Of a stretch of DNA of 64,000 nt, positions 20,276 to 30,006 are shown one piece after another. Source of the DNA: Nitrospirota bacterium. GTDB taxonomy: Bacteria > Nitrospirota > Nitrospiria > Nitrospirales > Nitrospiraceae. Location: NCBI GenBank assembly GCA_030645475.1, contig JAUSMA010000069.1, positions 1 to 64,000 on the forward strand, read 5' to 3'. The first letter of the stretch is position 1; every line of letters begins with the position of its first letter. The notes beneath the pieces are model-generated. The model made no database searches. It was not told where the DNA came from and saw only the letters and a list, made by a program, of their open reading frames with translations. The translations under genes were made by a program, and so were the position numbers.

Positions 20276-20625
20276 GGGGGCGACCGGAATCGACGGGGAT
20301 ACTAAGGTCAGCGGTGCATGTCGAGCTCTCGGGGTCTCGTAAATCCTCCGGGAAAATGTAACTGCAAACCAAGAATTTGCACTCGCAGCTTAAATAACTG
20401 CGACGTTCCTCCACCTGAGGCCCGCGGGGGTGGTCGGAGCGCGATACAGCGGGCTGGTCCAAAGCTGGTGCTCAGCGGCTGAGGACGAGACAATACTGGG
20501 CTAGTGGCCAGTCTAAGCTAGCCGGTGGGCGTGGGTGGCTGCGAAACTAAAACGATCGGCTAAACATGTAGATCCGTTGTGCTGAAGGTCTTCGGACAGG
20601 GGTTCAACTCCCCTCGCCTCCACCA
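20276..20625 (+). ncRNA. ssrA: tmRNA (SsrA), tag ANQEFALAA
   Basis: 350 bases with all tmRNA landmarks. The 5' GGGGGCG pairs with CGCCTCC before the encoded CCA at 20623-20625. The T-arm GGTTCAACTCCCC is just upstream, and the 5' end has the conserved GACCGGAATCGACGGGG. The tag frame starts at GCA 20364 and ends at TAA 20391, encoding ANQEFALAA, with the usual LAA degradation signal. The resume region and pseudoknot-forming GC-rich segments follow. It rescues stalled ribosomes with SmpB (1753-2232). Confidence 0.98.
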
Positions 20626-27030: not shown

Positions 27031-27381
27031 ATGGGTCTTGCCGACAACAAATGCATCCCTTGCCGTGGTGGGGTGCCGCCGGTTCCGGCGGATCGCGTGC
27101 AGACTCTACTGAAAGAACTCGGGCGGGGCTGGTCGCTGAATCAGGTCGGCCATCTTGAACGATTGTATACATTCAGTGATTTCGCCCAGGCACTGGCCTA
27201 CGTGAACAAAGTGAGCGCGATTGCTGAAGCCGAGGGTCATCACCCGGATCTCTATCTCGCCTGGGGCAAATGCAAGGTCGAAATCTGGACTCACAAGATC
27301 AATGGCTTGACCGAGAGCGATTTTTTTATGGCAGCTAAAGCCGATCGCGAATTTGAACCGTTTCGCGCATCCGCCAGTTAA
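27031..27381 (+). CDS. Pterin-4a-carbinolamine dehydratase
   Basis: 116 residues from ATG 27031 after GGGAGG. Contains the PCD/DCoH active-site motif GHHPDLYLAWGKCKVEIWTH with His70 and His71, and the helix FAQALAYVNKVSAIAEAEGH. It dehydrates 4a-hydroxytetrahydrobiopterin in pterin recycling, although many bacteria without phenylalanine hydroxylase use it in molybdopterin-related or other roles. A cysteine pair near the N-terminus (CIPC) is extra but common in bacterial homologues. It is 42 bases before the radical SAM gene. Confidence 0.92.
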   Translation: MGLADNKCIPCRGGVPPVPADRVQTLLKELGRGWSLNQVGHLERLYTFSDFAQALAYVNKVSAIAEAEGHHPDLYLAWGKCKVEIWTHKINGLTESDFFMAAKADREFEPFRASAS

Positions 27382-27423: not shown

Positions 27424-29283
27424 ATGAGCGACAAGGCCGAGGTGGCGCTCGTCAATATGCCGTTTAGTTACTCGAAGTATCCTTCGATCCAACTGGGCAC
27501 CCTCTCTGCGCTGCTCAAGTCGAGGGGAATCCCCGTCGACTGCCACCATCTGAATGTTCGGTTCGCCCACAAGATCGGTGTCCCCCTCTATGAAATGATC
27601 TGCGAGAAGCGGGCGCTGTTTGGCGAATGGCTGTTTTCCTACCTCTTGTTCCGAGACAATCCGAAGCGCGCCGAGTACCCCCGACTCTTCAAGCCGGTAT
27701 TTGAGCAGGTTGCCAAGGAGAGTGGGCATCAGGCTTCGTTCTTTGAAGGTATGGCGACGAGGACGGCGCCACAGTTCTTGACCGGGGCTCTGACCTCCAT
27801 TGACTGGGGGCAATACAAGATTGTCGGCTTCACCTCCACGTTCGACCAAAATGTCGCTAGCTTGACGATGGCTAAACTCATCAAGGATCTCTATCCCGAT
27901 GTGACGATCGTGTTCGGTGGAGCGAATTACGACGGCGAGATGGGGCTGGAATATTTTAGGGCCTTTCCCTTCATCGATCATGTCGTGGTGGGGGAAGGGG
28001 AAGAGGTGTTCCCGGAATTGGTTCGTTATCTCCTTGGGGGAAAGACCGGGGCGATGCCCAGCGGCGTGACCTATCGAGAGGGCGAGAGGATCGCCTTCAA
28101 CCCGAACCAGGCATTGTTCACGGATTTTGCGAAGACCGGTCCTCCGGACTATGACGATTACTATCATTTGCTGGCTGAACTCGGGGATGCGGCACAGGGG
28201 CTCGACCGGATTCTTCTTTATGAGGGGTCACGGGGCTGCTGGTGGGGGGAGAAGCATCATTGTACGTTTTGCGGATTGAACGCACAGAGTATGAAGTTTC
28301 GGGCGAAATCGTCCGAGCAAGTGGCCCGGGAGATGGCCTATCTGTCCAGTCGCTATGACACGGCGCGATTTCGCCTCGTGGACAACATCATCGACATGAA
28401 ATATGTGGACAACCTCTTCGGTCGATTTGCGGCAGACCATTGTGATCTCGATGTATTCATCGAAACGAAAAGTAATCTCCACAAGAGCCAGATCCGAACA
28501 CTCGCTGCCGGAGGCGTGAAGTGTATGCAGCCGGGATTGGAGAGTCTGAGCCTCAATCAGTTGCAGTCGATGGATAAGGGCGTCACCCCGATGCAGAATA
28601 TCATCTGCCTTAAGTGGAGCTACTACTATCATGTCGCGGTGTCGTGGAATATCCTGCTCGGATTTCCCGGAGAAACGAACGAAGACTACCGTCGGCAGAT
28701 CGACCTGATCCCGTCGTTGTTCCATCTGCATCCGCCGGAGTCGACCGGCAAGTTATGGCTGGAACGATTCAGTCCCTACTACACCAAGCCACAGGAATAT
28801 GGTGTTCGTATCACCGGTCCTGGGACGCCCTACGAGTATGTCTATGATGCTCGGCAGGTGGACTTGAAGAAGATCGCCTATGACTTCGAGTATGAATTGG
28901 ACAATTGGCAGGTGGACCAAGAGGTCTATCAAGAATTGGTCGACCTGGTTCAGGAGTGGCAGCGATTAGTCGCGTCAAGCGATCGGCCGTTTCTCTATTA
29001 CTCGAAGGCGATGGATTATGTCACGGTCTACGATGGCCGGAATCCAAAGGCACCGATCAGGCGGCGTTATGATTGGCCTGCAGCGGGGATCATCGAGGCC
29101 TGTAACGAAGCGGCTAAAAGTGTGGACCAGATTCGTGCCCAGCTAACAAGCCGAGCCGGCAAAGGCGAGAGCAGCGACGCAGACATTCATCAGGCCTTGG
29201 CTACGTTGACGGCGGCGCGGATTCTCTACGAAGAACGCGGCAAGTATTTTACTTTGGCCGTTCCTGAAAACCCCTACCTCTAG
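27424..29283 (+). CDS. B12-binding radical SAM protein, RiPP-maturation type
   Basis: 619 residues from ATG 27424. Residues ~1-210 resemble a cobalamin-binding domain with IVFGGANYDGEMG and VVGEGEEVFPELV. The radical SAM core carries Cys272-x7-Cys280-x2-Cys283 within GCWWGEKHHCTFCGLN, a spacing characteristic of the 'RiPP maturation radical SAM protein 1' family (TIGR03975) rather than CxxxCxxC. It would bind [4Fe-4S] and SAM and modify a peptide. The C-terminal ~100 residues look like a winged-helix-like tail. No precursor peptide gene was found alongside. Confidence 0.88.
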   Translation: MSDKAEVALVNMPFSYSKYPSIQLGTLSALLKSRGIPVDCHHLNVRFAHKIGVPLYEMICEKRALFGEWLFSYLLFRDNPKRAEYPRLFKPVFEQVAKESGHQASFFEGMATRTAPQFLTGALTSIDWGQYKIVGFTSTFDQNVASLTMAKLIKDLYPDVTIVFGGANYDGEMGLEYFRAFPFIDHVVVGEGEEVFPELVRYLLGGKTGAMPSGVTYREGERIAFNPNQALFTDFAKTGPPDYDDYYHLLAELGDAAQGLDRILLYEGSRGCWWGEKHHCTFCGLNAQSMKFRAKSSEQVAREMAYLSSRYDTARFRLVDNIIDMKYVDNLFGRFAADHCDLDVFIETKSNLHKSQIRTLAAGGVKCMQPGLESLSLNQLQSMDKGVTPMQNIICLKWSYYYHVAVSWNILLGFPGETNEDYRRQIDLIPSLFHLHPPESTGKLWLERFSPYYTKPQEYGVRITGPGTPYEYVYDARQVDLKKIAYDFEYELDNWQVDQEVYQELVDLVQEWQRLVASSDRPFLYYSKAMDYVTVYDGRNPKAPIRRRYDWPAAGIIEACNEAAKSVDQIRAQLTSRAGKGESSDADIHQALATLTAARILYEERGKYFTLAVPENPYL

Positions 29284-29304: not shown

Positions 29305-29637
29305 TCACATCGAGAGCTTATCGGCGACATTGCGCATCTGAACGCCATGCGCGAGCGATGCGCCGCCTCTGATGGCACAGGCGACATGGACGGCTTCTGT
29401 CATTTCCTCGATGTTCGACCCCTTCTCCAGGGAAGCCTGCGTATAGGCATCGATACAGTAGGGGCATTGAACCGCGTGGGCGACCGCAAGGGCGATGAGG
29501 GCCTTCTCTCGCTCGGTCAAAGCCCCTTCAGCGAAGACGGCGCTGTAGTAGGCCATGAACTTGTCCCAGAGATCCTTGTTCCCCTTGCCCATATCGGAAA
29601 ACTTCCCCAGATCATGGGGATGATAGTAGGTGTCCAT
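29305..29637 (-). CDS. AhpD-like carboxymuconolactone decarboxylase-family protein
   Basis: 110 residues from ATG 29637, which follows AAGGAG; a longer in-frame start at 29706 lacks one. The AhpD signature is present: ALAVAHAVQCPYCIDAYTQ with the CPYC redox pair and a following His-rich stretch. The N-terminus MDTYYHPHDLGKF matches small peroxidase-like proteins that have been associated with arsenosugar biosynthesis clusters (from memory). It likely acts as a thiol-dependent peroxidase-type protein. Convergent with the radical SAM gene, 21 bases away. Confidence 0.88.
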   Translation of the reverse strand: MDTYYHPHDLGKFSDMGKGNKDLWDKFMAYYSAVFAEGALTEREKALIALAVAHAVQCPYCIDAYTQASLEKGSNIEEMTEAVHVACAIRGGASLAHGVQMRNVADKLSM

Positions 29638-29721: not shown

Positions 29722-30006
29722 CTAGGCGTTGCTGGGTGGTTCGGGGTCAGCTTGGGTGAGCACCTGCGAAAACCTCGTGCCGACGATACCGGTCACCTTG
29801 GCCATGAGGTCGGTGACTTCTTGCCATTCCGTCGGCAACAAATCTTGTTTCAGTTGGGGATGGATCGCCCATTGAGCATCGACTTGTGTTCCCTTTCGGC
29901 TCACGAGCACCCGGAGCAGTTCCACATCCTTGTTGTGCGACTCGGTTCCTGTCGCTTGGGGAGAGTTTCCGTTTAATGGTCCTGATGGAGGCGTTGATCG
30001 TGCCAT
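29722..30006 (-). CDS. Small hypothetical protein
   Basis: 94 residues from ATG 30006 after AAGGAG. No known family was recognised. Residues 1-28 are polar and rich in Ser, Pro, Gly and Asn; residues ~29-80 form a compact hydrophilic alpha/beta-like part around VSRKGTQVDAQWAIHPQLKQ; the tail is acidic. No signal peptide and no cysteine. It lies 84 bases upstream of the AhpD-like gene on the same strand and could share a transcript. Confidence 0.65.
   Translation of the reverse strand: MARSTPPSGPLNGNSPQATGTESHNKDVELLRVLVSRKGTQVDAQWAIHPQLKQDLLPTEWQEVTDLMAKVTGIVGTRFSQVLTQADPEPPSNA

Follow-up and report, generated by a model that had tools for sequence, protein, structure and literature searches.

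An orphan B12-dependent radical SAM enzyme conserved across the Nitrospirales probably modifies an ordinary cell component

In the biosynthesis of polytheonamide, valine is methylated at its beta carbon by PoyC, an enzyme with a Cys-x7-Cys-x2-Cys (Cx7Cx2C) motif; this unusual spacing also occurs in the methyltransferases of the bottromycin cluster (PMC11285071, PMC5682303). By these published descriptions, the enzyme analysed here resembles PoyB and PoyC, being a class B B12-dependent radical SAM methyltransferase with the Cx7Cx2C motif; the Poy enzymes, however, act on a proteusin precursor inside their cluster, and the Nitrospirales locus has none. A second described group is the family rSAM_ocin_1 (NCBIfam TIGR03975, 'RiPP maturation radical SAM C-methyltransferase'), which our enzyme matches over the full length, in the Cx7Cx2C motif, in an N-terminal cobalamin domain and in a C-terminal winged helix. 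It departs from this family in that no precursor or RiPP cluster accompanies it, and in being a single-copy core gene of its order, paired with a dehydratase gene. Among the relatives sampled outside Nitrospirota (the top 78 loci by similarity to another query, so that closer outsiders may exist), the highest identity was with the radical SAM enzyme of the Streptomyces globosus pheganomycin cluster (WP_114059372, 40% over 98%); unlike ours, that enzyme adjoins genes for a precursor, a peptide ligase and dihydroxyphenylglycine. Finally, Mmp10 and MgmA are likewise class B enzymes; each acts on a single conserved protein, and no RiPP cluster is involved. They differ in belonging to other sequence families (structural alignment gave 11-16% identity) and in having a known protein substrate.

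The gene lies at 27424..29283 (+ strand) of the window, i.e. of the whole 64,000-nucleotide stretch of Nitrospirota DNA that was analysed. It encodes a 619-aa B12-dependent radical SAM C-methyltransferase, the ATG start of which is backed by the alignment of orthologues, and it matched positions 1-606 of 606 of the TIGR03975 model (603 bits, E 5.9e-181, cut-off 281.85). The [4Fe-4S] motif GCWWGEKHHCTFCGLN (residues 272-283, 28237..28272, + strand) reads directly as C272-x7-C280-x2-C283, and these three cysteines were invariant in all sequences aligned. The motif and the RiPP-type radical SAM family proposed in the earlier note are thus borne out. Pfam Radical_SAM matched with 35 bits. A cobalamin-binding domain was placed at residues 129-200 (27808..28023, + strand) by PF02310, with 30.4 bits, slightly below the cut-off of 32.1; in the AlphaFold2 model of the whole enzyme (pLDDT 91.4), this region is the N-terminal part of a class B B12-radical SAM fold. 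The nearest structures were OxsB (Z 21.5), TokK (20.0) and CysS (19.8), followed by TsrM (Z 19.6) and MgmA (Z 18.1). At G000:C11:3185-6248 (L003, L004), two more B12-radical SAM genes lie side by side and resemble TIGR03975 weakly (123 and 108 bits).

The C-terminal domain predicted by AlphaFold2 at residues about 520-612 (28981..29259, + strand) is a winged helix and a candidate peptide-recognition domain. Modelled alone (pLDDT 92.9), it showed the order bbb-aaa-wing and matched leader-bound TbiB1 with Z 8.0. DNA-binding winged helices tied with this score, and the domain was therefore rejected as proof of leader binding; it may hold the substrate polypeptide.

Immediately upstream of the enzyme gene, separated from it by 42 bp, is a gene for a pterin-4a-carbinolamine dehydratase (27031..27381, + strand; PF01329, 98.7 bits). 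Downstream, after about 22 bp, is a convergent gene (29305..29637, - strand) for an AhpD-like 'arsenosugar biosynthesis-associated peroxidase-like' protein (TIGR04169, 193.6 bits, cut-off 120), followed by the gene for a 94-aa order-specific protein that matches no Pfam or NCBIfam family (29722..30006, - strand). With such short gaps on both sides, a hidden precursor gene would not fit next to the enzyme gene. The region from about 20.7 to 38.5 kb further contains genes for FGE-like, aquaporin, PPK2, amino-acid permease, IMPase, HARE-HTH and LpxC proteins, a two-component pair, NrdR, GlyA, ribosomal L9 and ZnuA, all of which are housekeeping genes or unrelated to the enzyme. A tmRNA gene (tag ANQEFALAA) is present at 20276-20625. 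The TIGR04169 gene was found beside the enzyme gene in 21 loci, all from its own family, and was not seen in loci of the sister family; the single ArsS above cut-off in this genome is encoded on another contig (C58). A link to arsenosugars through this neighbour was therefore rejected.

We use Nitrospirales here for two families of one order, the enzyme's own (f1) and its sister (f2), a name derived from the phylum and from the nxrAB operon of this genome. Matches to the enzyme at 1e-60 or better were found in 76/245 genomes of the phylum. Single-copy orthologues were present in about 54/62 genomes of the own family and 13/15 of the sister family, i.e. about 67/77 genomes of the order (the per-family figures are our own count from the 245-genome table). 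No orthologue was found in the other families of the class (0/11 sampled genomes), and copies elsewhere in the phylum were rare and 24-35% identical. Nitrospirales orthologues are 60-95% identical, the gene is retained in genomes of 1.7-2.0 Mb (G163, G159, G105, G242), and its dN/dS is 0.04-0.07, about 0.06, between near relatives; it is under strong purifying selection. In a tree of 99 proteins, the Nitrospirales sequences grouped in a single clade with full support, its stem long (0.95) and its crown shallow, as expected from one acquisition followed by constraint, and the gene is mostly vertically inherited within the order. The S. globosus enzyme was the sister of this clade among the outsiders sampled, a weak placement (SH-aLRT 89, long branches).

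The enzyme is selected yet dispensable, as indicated by several losses. First, in genus g2, five genomes lack the gene at an otherwise intact locus, and a tree of flanking genes showed at least two independent losses. Second, a decayed remnant of 58 residues is left in one of these genomes (G167), and the copy in G165 is frameshifted. Third, the enzyme is absent from two genomes of the sister family. Losses are assigned to the clade of G050, G167, G202 and G220 and to G206, G189 and G240. In one genome of the own family (G199; L074, L075), the core gene is missing from its usual place and two RiPP-type relatives are present. One of them adjoins genes for a subtilisin-like protein and for a possible precursor of 184 aa, which is rich in proline and glycine and starts with a coiled coil. 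These two were rejected as the same gene, being about 35% identical to it and lying in a cluster context of their own.

The earlier note had proposed that the enzyme lacks an adjacent precursor, peptidase or exporter and that it may use a distant precursor or modify something else. Its account of the locus proved accurate: no RiPP precursor, peptidase or exporter was found from about 20.7 to 38.5 kb, and no precursor in the window. The genome-wide search covered two leader families, and HMMs for Nif11 and for NHLP leaders each gave 0 hits in this genome; the same NHLP search was positive in genomes that hold such leaders. Among 65 small ORFs that neighbour the enzyme's relatives in other bacteria, 9 matched Nif11, 5 NHLP, 5 Os1348-type, 3 TOMM and 1 pheganomycin precursors (these counts overlap), compared with 0/76 small ORFs beside Nitrospirales copies; the contrast is only qualitative, since same-strand ORFs and a few hand-chosen ones were taken for the relatives and ORFs of both strands for the Nitrospirales. 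The 94-aa neighbour, which had been put forward as a possible substrate, is kept in practically all genomes of both families, including those that lost the enzyme, and was rejected as a dedicated substrate for this reason. The conserved part of this protein recurs at a second locus in nearly all genomes of both families, in an open frame of about 290 aa (e.g. G000:C7:4730).

We propose that the order captured a PoyC-type C-methyltransferase on one occasion and that the enzyme was given a new, fixed substrate of the cell itself, encoded at another place, a reading to which we give a probability of about 0.5. The ancestor of this order would have acquired the cobalamin-dependent enzyme in a single event, and the gene, placed behind the housekeeping dehydratase gene, would have been kept as a single chromosomal copy. 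Judging from the family, SAM would methylate cob(I)alamin, and a second SAM would be cleaved at the [4Fe-4S] cluster to give a 5'-deoxyadenosyl radical that abstracts hydrogen from an sp3 carbon; the resulting carbon radical would then receive the methyl group of methylcobalamin, the route proposed for PoyC (PMC5682303). The target would be an unactivated sp3 carbon of the substrate. By analogy with Mmp10 and MgmA, which act on methyl-coenzyme M reductase, this substrate is most likely a constant conserved protein or peptide rather than a natural-product precursor; no substrate was found. Several points count against this reading. The losses, the remnant and the frameshifted copy described above show that the enzyme is dispensable. 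The winged helix, which should bind an unchanging partner, is conserved less than any other part of the enzyme in Nitrospirales except a short linker (55% against 70-78% for the other parts). A small unannotated precursor far from the gene is also conceivable, the genome-wide search having covered two leader families.

The other half of the earlier proposal, a true RiPP system in which a short leader-core peptide, encoded at a distance and escaping recognition, is modified in trans and yields a product shared by the whole order, for instance a signal or cofactor peptide, is unlikely in our estimation but is the alternative to be weighed first. Characterised Cx7Cx2C enzymes do work in peptide natural-product pathways (PMC11285071, PMC5682303), a winged helix compatible with leader binding is retained, and several predicted RiPP clusters were reported in all Nitrospira genomes of a metagenome study (PMC9765116). 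Against it stand the lack of Nif11 and NHLP leaders in this genome, the 0/76 small neighbours with a precursor match, the lack of a peptidase or exporter nearby, and a tight conservation at a mostly fixed locus that is unlike the patchy RiPP-type copies of the same phylum. Because the gene is single copy, vertically inherited in the order, mostly fixed in place beside the dehydratase gene and, in the neighbourhoods examined, never accompanied by a recognised precursor, and because relatives elsewhere often carry adjacent precursors, the idea of a missing precursor is disfavoured; of the two suggestions in the proposal, modification of something else fares better.

The usual partner of the enzyme gene is the dehydratase gene. 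The enzyme gene was found downstream of it, on the same strand and 36-217 bp apart, in 31 loci from both families, and the two genes probably form an operon. As the dehydratase family has been ascribed a role in molybdenum cofactor (Moco) metabolism (PMC3223725), this tight and conserved pairing could make the dehydratase a functional partner of an enzyme acting on a small molecule, such as a pterin, an intermediate of the molybdenum cofactor, or an aromatic amino acid, which we consider rather improbable. No aromatic amino-acid hydroxylase is encoded in this genome; the dehydratase was therefore rejected as the servant of such an enzyme, and its presence is left to be accounted for in another way, which favours the small-molecule reading. 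The nearest relative in the tree, moreover, comes from a pheganomycin-type cluster, which also makes an unusual aromatic amino acid, but this placement is weak, as noted above. Furthermore, almost every genome of the class has the dehydratase, whether or not it encodes the radical SAM enzyme, so that the dehydratase does not need it, and PoyC, which has the same type of motif, acts on a peptide.

A last group of observations concerns nitrite oxidoreductase (NXR). In the reduced genome G163 (L072), the gene order is nxrA-nxrB, the radical SAM gene, then genes of 109 aa and 128 aa. The 109-aa gene is present in 71/77 genomes of the order and normally lies directly 3' of nxrB, indicating that the radical SAM gene moved into the NXR operon in the lineage of G163. 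The order of the radical SAM, 109-aa and 128-aa genes is kept in G236, from a different genus (L091), where the contig ends just upstream, and in G125 about 4 kb separate nxrAB from the radical SAM gene. Outside the window, nxrA and nxrB are followed by the two order-conserved small genes of 109 aa and 128 aa at G000:C69:84.5-92 kb (L188). The 109-aa gene was rejected as the substrate, being order-wide and found also in genomes that lack the radical SAM enzyme, as well as in genomes without nxrB. In three genomes (G127, G129 and the single-contig G208), the enzyme is kept, nxrB gave no hit anywhere in the genome, and the 109-aa gene stands in mid-contig without nxrB; two others (G202 and G189) possess NXR without the enzyme. 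In the fragmented genomes G050, G206, G220, G117 and G009, the apparent absence of NXR is probably an artefact, since their 109-aa gene is close to the end of a contig; in G143, a fragment of nxrB is kept at the contig end. Methylation or maturation of NXR by the enzyme, comparable to the action of Mmp10 and MgmA on methyl-coenzyme M reductase, is thus suggested by the relocation in G163 and by the arrangements in G236 and G125, but it is highly improbable, and an NXR-specific maturation was rejected, because the two are unlinked in most genomes and the presence or absence of the enzyme does not follow that of NXR.

In conclusion, this is an orphan, order-wide B12-dependent radical SAM enzyme without a recognised peptide partner in the neighbourhoods examined, and it probably modifies an ordinary cell component. 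Databases label the protein 'RiPP maturation', so that genome-mining surveys may score a peptide cluster in almost all Nitrospira genomes; the evidence rather suggests an orphan methylation found throughout an order of nitrite-oxidising bacteria. That this is a housekeeping C-methylation of a central component, for which NXR or its pterin-molybdenum cofactor would be the candidates to which the context points, is distinctly unlikely on present evidence. If the substrate were such a central enzyme or cofactor, the modification would have its counterpart in the methylation of methyl-coenzyme M reductase by B12-radical SAM enzymes.
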